A DNA stretch of 56,069 nucleotides from Deltaproteobacteria bacterium (GTDB taxonomy: Bacteria; Myxococcota_A; Polyangia; Polyangiales; JADJMO01): the NCBI GenBank assembly GCA_022843175.1, contig JALHOE010000032.1, forward strand, positions 1 to 56,069, read 5' to 3'. A program made the translations under genes and the position numbers. A model generated the notes under the pieces. That model was not told where the DNA came from. It made no database searches and was given only the letters and a program-made list of their open reading frames with translations. Shown here in pieces: positions 1 to 7,209 of the stretch. Within the stretch, counting starts at the first letter, position 1, and each line of letters begins with the position of its first letter.

Positions 1-288
1 TGCGCCGACGACGCGGACGCCGGCCGGGGCCGCCGGAGTGGATCCGGCGCCGCGCATCCGGCGCGCCAAGGGGATGGCAGCGACGAGCAGCGCCGCCGCG
101 GCCAGGGTGACCGCCGTCACGATCCCAGCGCGCCGCCTGCGACGCAAAACGGCGTTGGCAACGATCGAGTCGCCGATGACCTCGAGCATCGCGTCCACTT
201 CCTGGTCGCTACGGCCGGGTACCGCGACGGGGTTGTCCCTGAGGACTCTCGTCGCGGTCTCGCTGAGGCGCTCGCGCGGCTCGGTCAT
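1..288 (-). CDS. FecR-like anti-sigma factor, module A (3' part missing)
   Basis: Only the first 96 codons lie in the window; the gene continues beyond the left edge. The start ATG at 288 overlaps the stop of the sigma-factor gene by four bases (ATGA), the same junction seen in modules B and C. The visible part has a cytoplasmic head (MTEPRERLSETATRVLR), an Arg-rich stretch and one membrane segment (about residues 54-72, TAVTLAAAALLVAAIPLA). Its head resembles the module B protein at 3699-4805 (VAVP...RS, a run of Arg before the membrane segment) and likewise lacks a Cys/His zinc motif. By analogy the missing part should be a periplasmic FecR domain that restrains the partner sigma factor. 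The role is inferred from the paralogue and operon position. Confidence 0.7.
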   Translation of the reverse strand, partial: MTEPRERLSETATRVLRDNPVAVPGRSDQEVDAMLEVIGDSIVANAVLRRRRRAGIVTAVTLAAAALLVAAIPLARRMRGAGSTPAAPAGVRVVGA

Positions 289-1001
289 CGCGTCCTCCGT
301 TCATTCGAGGAATCCGAGAGCAGGGCGCGGAGCTCCCCATCTCGTTCGATGCGCTCATGCAACTCCGCTCGACCGCGGACGAGCCGGCTCTGAGCTGCCG
401 CGACGGTGACCTCGGTGATCTCGGCGATCTCTCGGAGATCGTACCCACACACGTCGTGCAGCACGACGGTGAAGGCCTTGACCGGATCCAGCCGCTCGAG
501 GTGGGTGCGAACCCGCCGGAGGAGGCTCCTTCGCACCGCGTCGGCTTCCGGATCGCCGCTCGGGACCTCGAGCCGATCCTCGCCGTCCATCACCAAGAAC
601 ATGCTGTCACGGCGCCGTCGCTTCAGCTCCCCATAGACGACGTGCGCGGTGACACGCGAGGTCCACGTATCGAGTGAGCACTCACCGCGGAACGTTGCGA
701 TCGAACGGATGGTCTCGATGAACGAGAGCTGCGCGAGCTCCTCGTGCTCGCGATCGTCACGTCCGAGGAGCCGCACGATGGTGCGATCAATCACCGGCGC
801 CAAACGCAGGTACACGGCCCGCGCCGCGCTGCGATCGCCGCGGCCGAGTGAGGCGAGCAGCTCGGTGTCGTCGAGGACGGGGTTCTCGCTCCCGCCCCCC
901 GGAGAGGGGGCGGAGGGGAGGGAAACCGAACCTCGCTCGAATACGGCGCTCGAGACCAGCTGCAGGGCAGGTCGAGTGTGCGGGCGCCTCGCCTCTGACA
1001 T
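285..1001 (-). CDS. ECF-type RNA polymerase sigma factor, module A
   Basis: A 238-residue sigma-70-family factor of the extracytoplasmic-function type. Region 2 is visible as DREHEELAQLSFIETIRSIATFRGECSLDTWTSRVTAH in pieces (the ELAQ.. and FRGECSLDTW stretches), and region 4 as DLREIAEITEVTVAAAQSRL followed by a basic helix (RGRAELHERI), the usual -35-binding helix-turn-helix. It is a clear paralogue of the factor at 3019-3702 (shared CGYDLREI/EGYDLREI and AAAQSRLVRGR). The start at 1001 is chosen because upstream in-frame codons lack sigma-factor similarity and because a promoter-like motif lies immediately before it; an mRNA starting there would be nearly leaderless. The stop overlaps the FecR-like gene by ATGA. 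Its target genes are unknown; the divergent barrel gene is an obvious candidate. Confidence 0.85.
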   Translation of the reverse strand: MSEARRPHTRPALQLVSSAVFERGSVSLPSAPSPGGGSENPVLDDTELLASLGRGDRSAARAVYLRLAPVIDRTIVRLLGRDDREHEELAQLSFIETIRSIATFRGECSLDTWTSRVTAHVVYGELKRRRRDSMFLVMDGEDRLEVPSGDPEADAVRRSLLRRVRTHLERLDPVKAFTVVLHDVCGYDLREIAEITEVTVAAAQSRLVRGRAELHERIERDGELRALLSDSSNERRTR

Positions 1002-1006
1002 CGCAA

Positions 1007-1039
1007 AGGATAGTAGCGATCTCGAGGTCGTAGCAGGCA
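1007..1039 (-). promoter_or_regulatory. Putative ECF autoregulatory promoter, module A
   Basis: On the minus strand TGCCTGCT (1039-1032) is followed after 17 bases by ACTATCCT (1014-1007), six bases before the sigma-factor ATG. The module B sigma gene has TGCCTGCT, 17 bases, ACTATTCT in the same place. Two paralogous genes keeping both boxes at one spacing, with unrelated spacers, is what a self-activated ECF promoter would look like. This is inference from two sites only. Confidence 0.5.
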
Positions 1040-1241
1040 CCGCCGGAGCGCGCGACGCCCGAGAAGTGGCAGGTGTGGGCACGACGTGCGCCTCGAGCCG
1101 AACCGTGCTGTTTCCAGGCTCCAGTGCCGTTCCCTCTGCGGTATCTTGATGCGGGGCCAGCGCTGCACCCGCGTCGCCGGCGTCCGGTACGGGTGCACGA
1201 ACCGGGTTTGACCTTGGACTGTCCAGGGGGTCAGCGTTCTC

Positions 1242-2204
1242 TTGTCCGCGTCGCTCGTCATCGTCTTCCTCGTCGCGAGCAGCGAAGCGCACGATCCGGA
1301 AACGGTCAGCGCGACCAGCGTTACGCGCGAAGGTCTTGGTCCGAGCGCGGTAGTGGTGGTGCGCGAGGTCGACATCGTGCCGCCCGATCCCGATGCGATG
1401 GCGCTGGCGACGAAGCTTTCGGCGGATGCGCTCGTCGAGATCCGCTGGTCGGGCAACGACCACAGTCACGTCACTGTGCACGTGCTCGTCCGCCGCGACG
1501 CGCGCTGGGAAGACCGGGAGCTTGATTTCGCGCCGACGGATGCGCCTTCGGAGCGCGGTCGGACGGTGGGCTTGGCGGTCATCGCGATGTCGCCGGAAGC
1601 CGTGCCGGATCTACCCCCGATTGCGTCCAAGCCTGCAGCGCCGCCGATTGTGCCGCCGATTGTGCCGACAGGTCACCCGGAGCTTCGGCCGCCGCAGCCG
1701 AGCGCTCGGATCCGCGCTTTCCTCGACTCATCGCTAGGAGTAGCAGGGAGCGGCGGGGGCGTTGCCGTCAGTGCCTATGGCGTCGCTCTGGGATTCGGCG
1801 TCCTCCTCGACCGCTTGGTCCTTCGCGCCGGCGCTGCGACCCGTTTGGGGAACCTCACGTCGATCGGAGTCTCGACGTCGACCACGACGCTCGTCGCCGG
1901 GGTTGGGATCGAGGGCGCACCACTCGGCCGACAAGCCTCCCTGTTCCGTGCGCGTCTGCGCGTCGATGCGCTGGCGTCGCGCGACAGCTTCTCTCACAAC
2001 GCTGTTTCTATCGTGACCTGGTCGCCGGGTCTTTCTCTCGCGACGGACGCCGGCTACGAGCTCGGTCGCGGAGCCGCCGCGATGATGGGCGTGGGCGTCG
2101 AGTGGATCGCCCGACGCACGACCGTCTACATCGACAACGTCCCGGCTGCCCGTCCCGGCGCGCTCCGCGTCGTGTTCTCAGCTGGCCTCCGTCTCCAGTT
2201 CTGA
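1242..2204 (+). CDS. Predicted outer-membrane beta-barrel protein, module A
   Basis: A 320-residue protein starting at TTG with a GGGGG ribosome-binding stretch about 12 bases upstream. It begins with a short hydrophobic signal (SASLVIVFLVASSEA). The N-terminal half has a small alpha/beta-looking domain (GLGPSAVVVVREV, EIRWSGND, DRELDF, ERGRTVGLAV), then a Pro-rich linker (about residues 125-150), then a C-terminal half of alternating polar/hydrophobic strands rich in Gly and Ser that ends in LQF, as outer-membrane barrels typically end in an aromatic residue. Paralogues are at 5474-6445 (same domain signatures, also a TTG start) and, more distantly, 53215-54189. Divergent from the sigma gene and 37 bases upstream of the Cys-rich lipoprotein gene. 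No known family name is recognised; the barrel assignment is from sequence pattern. Confidence 0.7.
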   Translation: MSASLVIVFLVASSEAHDPETVSATSVTREGLGPSAVVVVREVDIVPPDPDAMALATKLSADALVEIRWSGNDHSHVTVHVLVRRDARWEDRELDFAPTDAPSERGRTVGLAVIAMSPEAVPDLPPIASKPAAPPIVPPIVPTGHPELRPPQPSARIRAFLDSSLGVAGSGGGVAVSAYGVALGFGVLLDRLVLRAGAATRLGNLTSIGVSTSTTTLVAGVGIEGAPLGRQASLFRARLRVDALASRDSFSHNAVSIVTWSPGLSLATDAGYELGRGAAAMMGVGVEWIARRTTVYIDNVPAARPGALRVVFSAGLRLQF

Positions 2205-2241
2205 CCGGCATTGCCTGCCTGATTCGAGCTACGCTGTACAT

Positions 2242-2934
2242 GTGAGTGCACGAACTCTTTCGATCGCGTTGCTCACGCTCGGTGCGTGCGCCGACGCGGA
2301 GGCGCGCTTCGCGACGCTCGCCGCGCCCCCCCGCGACGCCTCGTCGCCTGGTGACGCCGCAGTCGATGCCTCAGCGCTCGATGACGCAGTCGATGGCGAC
2401 ACCGGGGACGCCTTTCGTCCACCACCACCACCTCCGTCGACTTGCAAGGACGACGCGCTGTGCGTGCCGCTCGGTCTCGTGTGCGATGCTGCGTCCGGGA
2501 CATGCGTCGAGTGCCGAGACGACGCGCAATGCGGTGGAATGCGTCGGTGCGATCTCGCGCTCCACCGCTGTGTCGAGTGCGGGCTGGCAGCCGACTGCGC
2601 GGCCGGCGAGATCTGCGAGGCGACGACGCGACGTTGCGTCAAGAGCTGCCCGAGCGGGGATCCCTCTGTGTGCCCCGCCAGCTCGCCGATCTGCGATCCG
2701 GCGCGTCGGATTTGCGTGTGCGACGCGGTGAGCTGCCCAGCAATGGGCGAGGTCTGCGACGCCGCGAGCGGTCGCTGCGTCGGCTGCACCAGCGACGCGC
2801 ATTGCATGTCGACGACCAACCCGCGCTGCGACCGCGTCCGTGGTGAATGCGTACGGTGCCTATCGGCGCTCGATTGTCCGGCTGACTTGCCACGCTGTGA
2901 CGTGTCCGCTTCGGAGTGCGTGAAGGCGAGCTGA
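2242..2934 (+). CDS. Cysteine-rich repeat lipoprotein, module A
   Basis: A 230-residue exported protein. It starts at GTG with a signal ending in the lipobox LTLGAC, followed by an Asp/Ala-rich linker and a Pro run (about residues 60-66). The rest is a tandem array of units of roughly 22-26 residues with the pattern C-x5-C-x6-CD-x5-C-x-x-C (for example VECRDDAQCGGMRRCDL), with 28 Cys in the mature region. Such dickkopf/EB-like cysteine arrays are common in predicted surface lipoproteins of Myxococcota; their function is not established. Paralogues in this window are at 4812-5474 and 55058-55822, each next to a barrel gene and a sigma/FecR pair. Probably anchored in the outer membrane and disulfide-bonded. 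Confidence 0.75.
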   Translation: MSARTLSIALLTLGACADAEARFATLAAPPRDASSPGDAAVDASALDDAVDGDTGDAFRPPPPPPSTCKDDALCVPLGLVCDAASGTCVECRDDAQCGGMRRCDLALHRCVECGLAADCAAGEICEATTRRCVKSCPSGDPSVCPASSPICDPARRICVCDAVSCPAMGEVCDAASGRCVGCTSDAHCMSTTNPRCDRVRGECVRCLSALDCPADLPRCDVSASECVKAS

Positions 2935-2972
2935 GCAAGCCGCACGCAAGAAATCTGTGCGCGCGGACCGTT

Positions 2973-3005
2973 TGCCTGCTGGGGGCGGATGCAAGGCACT
3001 ATTCT
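2973..3005 (+). promoter_or_regulatory. Putative ECF autoregulatory promoter, module B
   Basis: TGCCTGCT (2973-2980), 17 bases, then ACTATTCT (2998-3005). It matches the module A site in both boxes (one C/T difference) and in spacer length. An ATG at 2989 falls between the two boxes and is therefore an unlikely start for the sigma gene if this is the promoter. Confidence 0.5.
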
Positions 3006-3018
3006 AAAGGTGCCAACC

Positions 3019-3702
3019 GTGCGCGGCTCTCCCCTCCGAAGACTTCGGCTCGTTGCGGGTGAGCGCGAGCCATCGGCCGCTGTTTCCCCCCCTACATTGG
3101 GCCGGCCGGGGCCCTGCACCGACGAGATCGAGCTCCTGACGGCGGTTCGGCACGGCGATCGGGGCGCGGCCACCGAGCTGCATGATCGCGTGCGCTCGGT
3201 CGTTGACCGTACGATCGGAGGCCTGCTCGGGCGCTACGACGCCCAGCATGAGGAGCTCGCTCAGATCACGATGATCGAGCTCGTTCGGTCGCTTGCCCGA
3301 TTTCGTGGCGATTGCTCACTGGATGTTTGGACGATGCGCATCGCCGCGCGCACCGTCTACCGGGAGCTTCGAACGAGAACGCGACGAAAGCGCATCTTCT
3401 CGCTTGAGAACGTCAACGAGGACACCGCGTCGTTCCACGATCTCGAGGCAGATACCGCGCACCGGCAGCTCATCGGTCGCGTCCGCGCGCACCTCGACGA
3501 TCTCGACCCGAACAAGGCGTGGACCTTCGTGCTCCACGACGTCGAGGGTTACGATTTGCGCGAGATCAGTGAGATCACCGGTGTGTCGATAGCCGCCGCG
3601 CAGAGCAGGCTGGTGCGCGGGCGCAAGGAGCTCCATGCGCGAATCGCCAGCGACCCCGAGCTTGCATCGCTTGTAATTGCCGCCGCGGAGAAGACGCCAT
3701 GA
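3019..3702 (+). CDS. ECF-type RNA polymerase sigma factor, module B
   Basis: A 227-residue ECF sigma factor, paralogous to 285-1001. Region 2 carries HEELAQITMIELVRSLARF and FRGDCSLDVWTMRIAA; region 4 carries EGYDLREISEITGVSIAAAQ followed by RLVRGRKELHARI. GTG at 3019 is preferred over ATG at 2989 because the latter sits inside the putative promoter and 3019 has AAAGG eight bases upstream; if 2989 is used the protein is ten residues longer. The stop overlaps the FecR-like gene by ATGA, as in module A. The pair is transcribed convergently toward the module B Cys-rich and barrel genes. Confidence 0.85.
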   Translation: MRGSPLRRLRLVAGEREPSAAVSPPTLGRPGPCTDEIELLTAVRHGDRGAATELHDRVRSVVDRTIGGLLGRYDAQHEELAQITMIELVRSLARFRGDCSLDVWTMRIAARTVYRELRTRTRRKRIFSLENVNEDTASFHDLEADTAHRQLIGRVRAHLDDLDPNKAWTFVLHDVEGYDLREISEITGVSIAAAQSRLVRGRKELHARIASDPELASLVIAAAEKTP

Positions 3703-4805
3703 CCGAACTACAAACCCCTCCGGCAAGCGATGCCGCTCGTTTACTTCGGGCGGCTGCCGTCGTAGCCGTCCCCGCTCCCTCCCGCGACGATCGCGCGCGC
3801 GCGATCGAGAGGCTCGCCGATGAGATCGGGCGTGCCGCCTGGCGAAGGCGTGCGCGGACAGCGGTGGTGGTGGTGCTCGCCTCCGCCGCTGCGGTGACGC
3901 TGTTGTTCTTTGGCGCTCGCGGTCTCCGACCAGCGCCGCGCTCGCCGATCGCGCAGCCCGCCGCACCGGCCCTACCGGTGCACGTTGCCGTGGCCGAGGG
4001 CGGCGGCGGCGTGTCGCTGCTTCGAGGTACCGGAGAGATCGCGCTGCCGGCGGTCCTGGAGCAGGGCGACCGCCTGTTCCGTACCGGTTCGACCGAGCCA
4101 ATCGCTGCGGCGGCGCTCTCTCTCTCCACCGGCACCACGCTGCAGCTGGGAAGCGCCACTGAGGCTCGAGTCGATCTCGCTGATGCGATGCAGCAGGTGC
4201 TCCATCTCTCGAAGGGCACGCTCGAATCTCACGTCGCGCCCTTGCCAGCGGGCGGGCGGTTCGTGGTTCGCACAATCGACGCCGAGGTCGAGGTGCATGG
4301 CACTCGATTCCGTGTCGATGTGCTCGACGAGCCGCTCGCCGGGTGTACTCCTCGCGCTCGCACGCGCGTGATCGTCTCGGAGGGCGTCGTTGTCGTGCGA
4401 TACGGTGCGACGTCCACAACCCTGGTTGCGGGTGAGGAGCTTCCGCGATGCCACCCTGCCGCGATCGGGCCGAGCGCCATCGCCCCTTCCGGCTCCTTGC
4501 CGGTCACACCGCACAAAGCGGATCCGGCGTCATCCACCGTGGGCAGCGCGCTGTCGATCCAGAACGCGCTCTACGCCGAGGCAATGGACGCCAAGAAGCG
4601 CGGCGACCGCGGCGCGGCGCGACGTCTCCTCGAGAAGCTCGCCGCCGACTATCCGACCGGGCCTCACGCCGAGAGCGCGCTGGTCGAGCGGATGCGGCTC
4701 CTCGATGGAGATGCGGCGCGTGTCGCTGCGAAAGATTACCTCGTGCGGTTTCCCAGTGGGTTCGCGCGCGACGAGGCGCGCACGCTCATCGGCCCGACAC
4801 CGTAG
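3699..4805 (+). CDS. FecR-domain anti-sigma factor, module B
   Basis: A 368-residue single-pass membrane protein. The cytoplasmic head (residues 1-50) is followed by an Arg-rich stop and a membrane helix at about 52-72 (AVVVVLASAAAVTLLFFGAR). The periplasmic FecR domain spans about residues 105-250: LLRGTGEIALPAVLEQGDRL, LQLGSATEARVDL, FVVRTIDAEVEVHGTRFRV and VIVSEGVVVVRYG in order. The C-terminal part (about 285-368) looks like a TPR/YfiO-like helical repeat ending RVAAKDYLVRFPSGFARDEA; the module C FecR protein ends with the same type of motif (AAKDYLDRFPNGFRRREVEQ). FecR proteins normally pass an outer-membrane signal to an ECF sigma factor; here the sensed partner could be the adjacent barrel. 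Confidence 0.8.
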   Translation: MTELQTPPASDAARLLRAAAVVAVPAPSRDDRARAIERLADEIGRAAWRRRARTAVVVVLASAAAVTLLFFGARGLRPAPRSPIAQPAAPALPVHVAVAEGGGGVSLLRGTGEIALPAVLEQGDRLFRTGSTEPIAAAALSLSTGTTLQLGSATEARVDLADAMQQVLHLSKGTLESHVAPLPAGGRFVVRTIDAEVEVHGTRFRVDVLDEPLAGCTPRARTRVIVSEGVVVVRYGATSTTLVAGEELPRCHPAAIGPSAIAPSGSLPVTPHKADPASSTVGSALSIQNALYAEAMDAKKRGDRGAARRLLEKLAADYPTGPHAESALVERMRLLDGDAARVAAKDYLVRFPSGFARDEARTLIGPTP

Positions 4806-4811
4806 CGCGCA

Positions 4812-5474
4812 TCACTTGCATTCCCCCTCGACCGGCTCGCACACCAGATCACTCGCGCCGCAGTCGTACGAGCCCCGGCATTGCGTGCACCGACCTCGCT
4901 TCGTATCGCAGAACGGTTTGTCGGCGGTGCAGGCCGCATCGTTGGTGCAAGCCACGCAGGTCCCGGTCGCGATGTCGCATCGCGTCCGCTCCGAACTGGT
5001 ACAGTCCGGATCACCGAGGCACTCGGCGCAGTACTTCGTACGCGGGTCGCAAATCGGAGCCTCCGAGGAGCAGGTCCCGGCGTCGCCGGGGACGCAGGGG
5101 CGTACGCATCGTCGCGTCGTCGGTTGGCAGCTCTCTTCTGACTCGCAATCGGCGGCAGTGCCGCACTGTACGCAGACGTGCGCCGCGAGGTCGCACCGTC
5201 GCATGTCGTCGGTGCAGTGGGCGTCAGTGAGGCAGGGGACACAGCGGCCGCTGGGAACGTCGCAGTGAAGGGTCGCGACCCGACAATCGTCGTTACGTCG
5301 GCATTGGGTCGCGGAATCGCGGTCGACCGGCACGGCGTCCGAGTGGTCGGGCTCGAGACGCACGGCGCCATCGCACCCTAGCTGGATGCATAAGAACGCG
5401 AGTATGGCGAGCACGACGCGCACGGGGCCCAAGTACTGAGAGTACCCTCCCGACCCGATCGCAAGGCAGCGCAT
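4812..5474 (-). CDS. Cysteine-rich repeat lipoprotein, module B
   Basis: A 220-residue paralogue of the protein at 2242-2934. The ATG at 5474 overlaps the barrel gene stop (TGATG), so the two are translationally coupled; an internal GTG at 5423 would give a tidier signal peptide (RVVLAILAFLCIQLGC, lipobox QLGC). After a short acidic linker come tandem CD-containing units (CRRNDDCRVATLHCDVPSGR, CLTDAHCTDDMRRCDLAAH and so on) that align unit by unit with module A, including the DDMRRCDLA/GGMRRCDLA and ATTRRCV/PTTRRCV segments. It ends seven bases from the convergent FecR gene. No catalytic motif is visible. Confidence 0.75.
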   Translation of the reverse strand: MRCLAIGSGGYSQYLGPVRVVLAILAFLCIQLGCDGAVRLEPDHSDAVPVDRDSATQCRRNDDCRVATLHCDVPSGRCVPCLTDAHCTDDMRRCDLAAHVCVQCGTAADCESEESCQPTTRRCVRPCVPGDAGTCSSEAPICDPRTKYCAECLGDPDCTSSERTRCDIATGTCVACTNDAACTADKPFCDTKRGRCTQCRGSYDCGASDLVCEPVEGECK

Positions 5475-6445
5475 CAGAATCGCGCCCGCAGGCCGAGTTC
5501 GAAGACGAAGCGCAGGCGGGGTACGGTGGCGACCGCCGAATCGCCGACGAACACGCGGGTCGCACCGAACGCGTACTCCGCCCCCACCGCGCCGACCACG
5601 GCCGCGTCGCGCGCTACAGCGAGGGTGCCCTCGGCCATCAGATCAACGCCGGGTATCCAGCGGCTGTCCCGCGAGACGGTATCGGGGCCGCGCGCGCTCC
5701 TCGCGAACGCGTGGCGGAGCAGGAGGAGATCGGCTCGCAGACCCAGCTCGAACGTCGCCGCGCCGTCGGTCGCGATGCGGGAGAGCAGTGGGACGCTGAA
5801 GCCGAGACCCGCCCAAGTCGTCAGCGCGGAGGCACGGGCCGGCGCGATCTCACCCAGACGTGCGCCGACGGCGAGCCGCGCCGACAGCCCCGCCGGGTTG
5901 AACGCACGCGTCGCGAGCTCGCCACCGAGCCCACCTGCGTAACCCGCGACACCGGAGCTCGCCTTGACGACGAGGTCGACAGCAAAGAACGATCGGGGAG
6001 CCACCCGCGGGCTCGGCCGCGGCGCGGGGTTGACCCAAGCGGGCGGCGGCCCCGGCGTGTGCGAGGGTTCGGATTTTCCCTCGGGCTTCTGCGGGGGCAC
6101 CAGTGCCGCCACGGCGAAGCCGACCGCGTACCCCCGTTCGGCCGCCGGGTCGCCGGGATCAAACGTGAGCTCCCTGTCCCGCCATCCGATCCGAACGTGA
6201 GCGTGGAGTCGAGCTCTTCGTCGCATCGCGAAATCGGACCAACTCAGCTCGACGATCGCGGTCGCCGAGAGCACCTCTTCGAGTTGCTCGGCGTCGGCGT
6301 CGGACGGCAGCTGCGCGACCTCGCGAACGATGACCGATGCGTTCGGACCGAGCGCCTCGGCTGCAGATGCGGCGACCGTCGCCATCTCCGGCGCGCGCGC
6401 GTCCGCGGCGCTGACGAGGATGATGACCAGCGCCGGTGTTAGCAA
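5474..6445 (-). CDS. Predicted outer-membrane beta-barrel protein, module B
   Basis: A 323-residue paralogue of 1242-2204. TTG at 6445 is chosen by alignment with the TTG start of module A: both give a short hydrophobic signal (LLTPALVIILVSAADARA). An upstream in-frame GTG at 6568 would add 41 Arg-rich residues with no counterpart. Shared features are ALGPNASVIVREV, VELSWSD, DRELTFDPGDPAAERGYAVG, a Pro-rich linker (about 110-145) and a C-terminal barrel-like half ending RARF. The signature before the linker may be a periplasmic domain. It is coupled by TGATG to the Cys-rich lipoprotein gene, suggesting the two products work together in the outer membrane. Confidence 0.7.
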   Translation of the reverse strand: MLTPALVIILVSAADARAPEMATVAASAAEALGPNASVIVREVAQLPSDADAEQLEEVLSATAIVELSWSDFAMRRRARLHAHVRIGWRDRELTFDPGDPAAERGYAVGFAVAALVPPQKPEGKSEPSHTPGPPPAWVNPAPRPSPRVAPRSFFAVDLVVKASSGVAGYAGGLGGELATRAFNPAGLSARLAVGARLGEIAPARASALTTWAGLGFSVPLLSRIATDGAATFELGLRADLLLLRHAFARSARGPDTVSRDSRWIPGVDLMAEGTLAVARDAAVVGAVGAEYAFGATRVFVGDSAVATVPRLRFVFELGLRARF

Positions 6446-7209
6446 GCGTCGTGTTCCAAATCTTGGGCGGCGGGCGCGGAGGCGTGGTCCGGTCTCATCC
6501 AGCGCATCATGACACGCGCGCCTGAACAACAGCACGCGCTCGCAGGGAGGTACAGACGACGCCCGCACGGAACTTCCGCATCAGGTTGCGGAGGATGCTT
6601 TAGTTAGGTCCCTCGGGCGCATCGGCAGCGAGTGGCGCTCGGGCGAACTTCCCCGGGGTGGCCCGAGACGAGCCGCCGCATTCCTAGACCCAACGGGGGA
6701 CCGATCGGGGGCAGTCTCTCGTGTGGCCGCTCCATCGGCGGGGCGTTCGGCGATAGGCGGCTTGGCAGCCCTCGTCGGCTTCGCGAGGAGCCGAGATGCA
6801 GCGGCTTGGGTGGCTCGTCCGCGAGGAGCCGTATCGCGGCGCACCGACCGAAAGCCGTTGGGACGGTCGCGCTACCACCAATCGGACTCAGAGTCGGTAT
6901 ACGAGGAGCGCGAGTCGGCCGACTTCGAGCATCAGTTTCCTGCCCGGCCCCGCGGGTGGCGCCACTCTCTGCCTTCGCGCGGAGCACGCTCGCGGTCTCG
7001 TTGCCCAGCCTCGACTGAACAGCCCACTGTTGGCGGCGCCGGGTGCGCACGATGGGTTGGCGCGGTGCTGTCGGGAGCGGAACGCCCCTTGCTCGCTTCG
7101 ATCATCGACGAACACAACGACGCGAAATTGCCACTGATAGACGGGGTCACCCTATGCTGAACCATCGCGAGCCTCATCTGCGTCCTCACCGCACCGAGCG
7201 CAGGTTTCC
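6446..7209. other. Intergenic region with no convincing gene
   Basis: A 764-base stretch between the module B barrel and the 52-residue micro-protein gene. Open frames exist in several phases on both strands but none shows a ribosome-binding site with protein-like composition; all read as Arg/Ser/Ala-rich, the usual appearance of non-coding high-GC DNA. The one recognisable element is the hairpin repeat at 6611-6668. GC-rich inverted repeats around 6770-6830 (CGAGGAGCC-type) may be structured RNA or chance. Confidence 0.5.
6611..6668. repeat. 58-bp conserved hairpin repeat, copy R1
   Basis: Matches 14411-14468 at all but five of 58 positions over the block (all differences are transitions), including an uninterrupted run CGGGCGAACTTCCCCGGGG and beyond. 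It contains a perfect stem CTCGGGC (6638-6644) / GCCCGAG (6661-6667) enclosing a loop with CCCCGGGG. Differences do not fall on one codon position, so it is unlikely to be a shared coding segment. It lies about 600 bases before the first 52-residue micro-protein gene. Confidence 0.65.

Follow-up and report, generated by a model that had tools for sequence, protein, structure and literature searches.

The window analyzed here, a stretch of 56,069 nucleotides, carries two modules built around ECF-type sigma factors in a rearranged gene order, with fecR-sigma A on the reverse strand, OMP1-cys1-sigma B-fecR on the forward strand and then cys2 and OMP2 on the reverse strand (Table 1). Both sigma proteins matched the Pfam domains Sigma70_r2 and r4_2 above the cut-off and no other sigma domain type. 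Their sequences share 51% identity across 216 aligned positions, and the path between them on the sigma tree amounts to 1.39 changes per site. The FecR-like gene of module A is truncated, because window base 1 is also the first base of the contig. Hydropathy and a structural model of FecR B indicate cytosolic helices, a single membrane span (residues ~55 to 73), the FecR domain and C-terminal TPR-like helices, and Foldseek related it to the solved FecR-type anti-sigma factors 4m0n (1.8e-06) and PupR (6ovk; 7.3e-05). A single tryptophan, W48, precedes its membrane span, and no tryptophan appears in the consensus of 20 aligned FecR N termini. OMP1 gave no match in Pfam; in a Foldseek search with its AlphaFold2 model (mean pLDDT of 82.4), NspA was the best match (6e-07), followed by OmpA, OmpW and OmpX. 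Cys1 scored 23.5 bits against TIGR04201, under the cut-off of 25.

The neighborhood is conserved beyond the window. Among 55 loci outside it, a FecR-like gene lies directly 3' of the sigma gene in 53 (in the remaining two the contig ends first), a barrel-protein gene is found 5' of it on the same strand in 44, and a Cys-rich gene is located downstream in 30. A search for related loci among genome contigs found none.

Table 1. Features of the sigma-fecR modules and their predicted promoters (positions in the window)
Feature	Coordinates	Strand	Basis
FecR-like putative anti-sigma of module A, N-terminal part	1..300	-	FecR B profile, 4e-08
Sigma A, ECF-type sigma factor	285..1001	-	TIGR02937, 48.7 bits (cut-off 42.9)
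Predicted sigma A promoter, TGCCTGCT-N14-GCTAC (-35/-10)	1013..1039	-	Exact pattern match
OMP1, periplasmic alpha/beta domain and predicted 8-stranded outer-membrane barrel	1242..2204	+	AlphaFold2, Foldseek
Cys1, Cys-rich predicted lipoprotein	2242..2934	+	LGAC lipobox (by eye), 29 Cys
Predicted sigma B promoter, TGCCTGCT-N14-GGCAC	2973..2999	+	Exact pattern match
Sigma B, ECF-type sigma factor	3010..3702	+	TIGR02937, 60.8 bits; start analysis
FecR B	3699..4805	+	Pfam FecR PF04773, 41.3 bits (cut-off 24)
Cys2, Cys-rich predicted lipoprotein, LGC lipobox	4812..5423	-	Sequence reading; profile match
Third window site, before cys2, TGCCTTGC-N14-GGTACTCTC	5438..5468	-	15.7 bits (other-loci matrix)
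OMP2, paralogue of OMP1 (start uncertain)	5474..6568	-	Profile match; 33% identical to OMP1

A sequence-only reading of this DNA had claimed that both sigma genes are preceded by the same two boxes, 17 bases apart and with unlike spacers, and had suggested a genome-wide scan for the motif and its comparison in orthologous loci. The claim was confirmed by a pattern scan, in which TGCCTGCT-N17-ACTATYCT occurred exactly twice in the window, at positions 1007 to 1039 (reverse strand) and 2973 to 3005 (forward strand), while two copies never appeared together in 100 dinucleotide-shuffled versions of the window. Throughout the genome (9,753,182 bases in 470 contigs), the exact pair had no further copy, and the slightly looser TGCCTGCN-N17-ACTATNCT returned the same two sites only, with no match for the reversed control. 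A looser genome scan with one mismatch gave 11 sites versus 13 in the control. The pair of boxes therefore stands as claimed and is unique in 9.75 Mb, but the limits given to the second box do not: since relatives conserve only GG[T/C]AC, this box is better described as a -10 core plus a tail, TATYCT, that is common mainly to the two window copies.

For the comparison across relatives, sigma proteins were searched in 183 genomes of the order, with matches at an E value of ≤1e-15 in 137 of them. Upstream regions were taken from 49 sigma loci first and later from 60 sigma rows, and a two-block matrix was trained without the window sequences. The conserved element that emerged from comparison with 58 other sigma upstream regions is TGCCTG[C/A/G][T/C]-N14-GG[T/C]AC, with N13 in some relatives, and the A and C of GG[T/C]AC are nearly invariant. 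It was found upstream of, and oriented toward, the sigma gene in 50 of the 60 rows (35 with N14 and 15 with N13, the label of sigma A having been assigned by hand from the window scan because the profile anchor was misplaced). With two outgroup rows set aside, the element precedes at least 50 of the 58 in-clade sigma genes, in most cases a few bases 5' of the start codon. Two rows counted as siteless, L044 and L072 (the same as L013), gave weaker sites with another anchor, and several in-clade loci, such as L040 and L082, had no good site. A sigma paralogue of 33% identity in the same genome lacks the element (2.9 bits, or 0.4 bits with the family-excluded matrix). The N13 spacer is found upstream of the sigma genes of L045, L047, L087, L088 and others; on the sigma tree this label is clustered, yet with several changes.

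With the matrix built from other loci only, the sigma A and sigma B promoters scored 21.9 and 22.3 bits, respectively. When the window's own family was left out (training on 46 of 48 rows outside it), the site before sigma B ranked first in the window (22.3 bits), followed by those of sigma A (21.8 bits) and cys2 (16.6 bits), and the next one scored 14.6 bits. Using the window-excluded matrix, the two sigma sites reached 22.9 and 24.0 bits, compared to 16.0 for the best among 294 shuffled upstream regions. The consensus, TGCCTG and GG[T/C]AC, does not contain the -35 AAC or -10 CGT boxes, and a -35 without the AAC usual for ECF promoters counts against reading the element as the promoter of an ECF clade.

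The position of the element also informs the gene starts. For the 46 sigma genes whose site scored at least 15 bits, the first in-frame start lies at a median of 10.5 nt past GGTAC, and in 45 of them it falls within 20 nt; in sigma A, the ATG (999 to 1001) is located 11 nt past the -10 core. ECF promoters usually start transcription 6 to 9 nt after the -10 core, and if this applies here, the short distance to the start codon would make the sigma mRNAs leaderless or nearly so. The earlier suggestion that module A is nearly leaderless is thus supported and seems to extend to the clade in general. For module B, the same reading had moved the sigma start to GTG 3019. Abandoning ATG 2989 was justified, as this codon falls within the promoter; the proposed replacement, 19 nt past GGCAC, is a possible start, but GTG 3010, the first in-frame start, appears to be the better one, being 10 nt past GGCAC and at the family norm.

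The element is not confined to sigma genes. The third site in the window, placed before cys2, and the lipoprotein targets described below were absent from the earlier reading. On a single strand of random sequence, a site with this spacer and a score of at least 15 bits would be expected once in 4 Mb. Since ATG 5474 would lie upstream of the predicted promoter, we propose GTG 5423 as the start of cys2. Translation from GTG 5423 gives Cys2 a clean lipoprotein signal peptide. A candidate promoter for cys1 at 2212 to 2239 (spacing one longer, 12.8 bits) was rejected, as its transcript would begin within the gene from GTG 2242, and scores of this size arise by chance fairly often.

Within this genome (G000), a looser pattern gave 42 sites, 10 of them at ≥15.5 bits; the sigma A and cys2 sites, at 21.9 and 15.7 bits, come from the window scan and not from this list. 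These ten comprise the site before sigma B, four before lipoproteins recognized by rule (on contigs C208, C4, C5 and C12), one before a lipoprotein recognized by eye (C74) and four others, and among the remaining 32 sites only one passed the lipoprotein rule. The products of the C74 and C208 genes contain Stig1 repeats above the Pfam cut-off. The motif-headed lipoprotein at C74:33467 (L091) has 576 amino acids, with the Stig1 repeats joined to DUF7305. At C4:63584-63636 (L213), two divergent copies of the motif stand back to back, 1 base apart, one of them heading a 333-amino-acid Cys-rich lipoprotein and the other without a clear gene nearby. Another divergent pair, on contig C206 of genome G050, heads two Cys-rich lipoproteins, and two sites in genome G106 (L143 and L144) head lipoproteins of 70 to 72 amino acids; the one tested matches DUF4266, an uncharacterized family.

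We then considered the scan of several genomes with the pattern TGCCTGVY-N14-GKTAC, using the reversed pattern as the control (Mb totals were summed from the listed genome sizes). In 20 sigma-bearing genomes (~184 Mb) there were 63 sites versus 67 in the control, and in 20 further ones (~158 Mb) 59 versus 49. The 25 genomes from this order that lack the clade (~164 Mb; 9 have only weak sigma matches and 16 none at 1e-15) had 7 sites versus 51, although they belong partly to other families and composition may add to the contrast. In three clade-lacking genomes from the same family as most of the sigma-bearing ones, the figures were 4 and 21. Because the raw counts in sigma-bearing genomes are not clearly above the control, the argument rests on the clade-lacking genomes and on the genes found downstream. 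In the first set, 62 of the 63 sites were classified, 12 as heading sigma genes, 24 as heading predicted lipoproteins (17 of these with at least eight cysteines) and 26 as neither. Of the 50 non-sigma sites, 24 thus had a predicted lipoprotein downstream, compared with 2 of the 67 controls (Fisher P = 4e-09), by a rule that was written after the first set had been read and that missed two lipoproteins judged by eye (G000 C74 and G051 C112), both kept as neither. The second set, with 45 of 59 sites classified (5 sigma, 7 lipoproteins and 33 neither), gave 7 of 40 non-sigma sites versus 2 of 67 controls (P = 0.013, with the controls of the first set). Two of the seven sites in the clade-lacking genomes passed the rule, and they are the same orthologous site, apparently inside coding sequence.

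A large regulon was discarded, as raw site counts stay at the level of the reversed control and few sites in this genome score high; since the 63 sites of the first set are close to the 67 of its control, the regulon would be small. TIGR04201 was also rejected as a target family, with no site of at least 15 bits in any of 30 loci, although the 1,500-base flanks may miss gene starts; taken in its entirety, the broad Cys-repeat family is an improbable candidate for the regulon. Exported proteins with Stig1-type Cys repeats form a large family (38 matched stretches in this genome and 85 in G050). Only a minority of the Stig1-type lipoproteins retrieved carried the motif.

From in silico evidence, we consider it very likely that the motif serves as the -35/-10 promoter for a clade of ECF sigma factors and that these same sigmas recognize it, so that they would control their own sigma-fecR operon and a small lipoprotein regulon. 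The autoregulation suspected in the sequence-only reading is supported in silico by the presence of the element before 50 of the 58 in-clade sigma genes, its near absence from genomes without the clade and its absence from the 33%-identical paralogue. These facts also bear on the alternative of an ECF-type promoter read mainly by another sigma, with the sigma genes arranged in a hierarchy and no self-regulation. There are many sigma candidates in this genome (60 at first look), but motif abundance tracks the presence of this particular clade, and we regard such a hierarchy as improbable. The boxes might instead be an operator for a separate transcription factor, as half-sites about two turns apart could suit a dimer and back-to-back divergent copies do exist, such as that on C4. 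However, the boxes are neither inverted nor direct repeats of each other, their orientation and their distance from the start codon vary little, the gap between them suits an ECF promoter, and no other promoter-like element was found between positions 950 and 3100, where a sigma-70-type promoter was also sought and not found. All of this makes an operator highly unlikely.

Sigma A and sigma B are paralogues grouped with moderate support (87/85), so that the shared boxes could be a functionless relic of their duplication. Against it, A and B have diverged from each other as much as from the copies of other species, and the same boxes are retained in dozens of other species. Given their sequence identity, their distance on the tree and the different spacers, shared ancestry alone is insufficient to account for the boxes, and a relic seems extremely unlikely. 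Chance resemblance is practically negligible in view of the unique pair, the shuffled windows and the matrix scores obtained with the window or its family left out.

Under the autoregulated promoter that we favor, an envelope signal would free the sigma factor from its membrane-bound FecR-like partner, and the freed sigma, with RNA polymerase, would transcribe its own sigma-fecR operon from TGCCTG-N16-GGTAC, a positive feedback exerted via leaderless or nearly leaderless mRNA. It would also turn on a small set of scattered genes, mostly for Cys-rich exported lipoproteins; candidate targets are cys2 in the window and the C74, C208, C4, C5 and probably C12 genes of this genome. We infer that the site is recognized by sigma A and sigma B, that the FecR-like protein is the anti-sigma factor and that the small barrel, OMP1 or OMP2, acts as the sensor. 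Sigma A and B probably cross-activate each other, as their promoters are nearly identical. More tentatively, and with somewhat less than even confidence, the system might represent a TonB-independent form of surface signaling, in which FecA is replaced by a small 8-stranded barrel that carries a periplasmic alpha/beta domain and senses the outer surface, a self-amplifying sigma is set free through an anti-sigma of the FecR-TPR type whose cytosolic part is unusual, and Cys-rich lipoproteins (Stig1-type and related) remodel the surface, in many species of the order and often in two or more nonidentical copies.

The arrangement resembles the FecI-FecR-FecA system of Escherichia coli in having an ECF sigma beside an anti-sigma that crosses the membrane once and bears its FecR domain in the periplasm, and in having an adjacent gene for an outer-membrane barrel. 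It differs in several respects. The fecIR genes are transcribed by sigma-70 and are not autoregulated (PMC9249621), whereas the sigma operon described here carries, in silico, its own motif. The barrel is small, with eight predicted strands and no Pfam match, and is not a TonB receptor like FecA, although a distant gene for a TonB-dependent receptor is a possible partner. In addition, W19, W39 and W50 are highly conserved in FecR-like proteins (PMC9249621), while FecR B has a single tryptophan in its cytosolic part. Among published autoregulated ECFs that have a FecR-like partner, the nearest one we found is the Leptospira pair LIC_12757/LIC_12756, an ECF sigma and a FecR-like single-span regulator under positive autoregulation (PMC12155086). 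Its promoter, unlike ours, has a CGT -10 motif, and the accessible part of that source mentions neither a lipoprotein regulon nor a small-barrel partner (PMC12155086).

Genome sizes and Cys-repeat families named after myxobacteria suggest that this genome belongs to a myxobacterium of the Polyangiales type. Myxobacterial ECF sigma factors include CarQ and CorE of Myxococcus. CorE differs from the sigmas described here in being governed by copper and a Cys-rich domain of its own (PMC3107203). AAC and CGT boxes and autoregulation were early hallmarks of ECFs, with the FecI-like ones as exceptions to autoregulation; the boxes are no longer considered defining, and 102 of 157 ECF groups are unstudied (PMC8103513). 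Titles and abstract openings in the open literature on the motif, on FecR in myxobacteria and on myxobacterial ECF regulons gave no description of this motif, although this clade may already have been assigned an ECF group and a predicted motif. With the canonical autoregulated ECFs, the system shares a two-domain sigma, an adjacent anti-sigma, a self promoter and similar spacing, and it departs from them in the TGCCTG and GG[T/C]AC boxes, the near-leaderless sigma mRNA and the dispersed Cys-rich lipoprotein targets. A motif known from two copies thereby becomes a testable promoter code, TGCCTG-N16-GGTAC, with predicted targets, covering a sigma clade across one order of probable myxobacteria and providing a lead on the regulation of part of a large family of Cys-rich surface lipoproteins. 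It would also represent FecR-type signaling with self-amplification and no adjacent TonB receptor, in contrast to classical FecIR, which lacks self-amplification.
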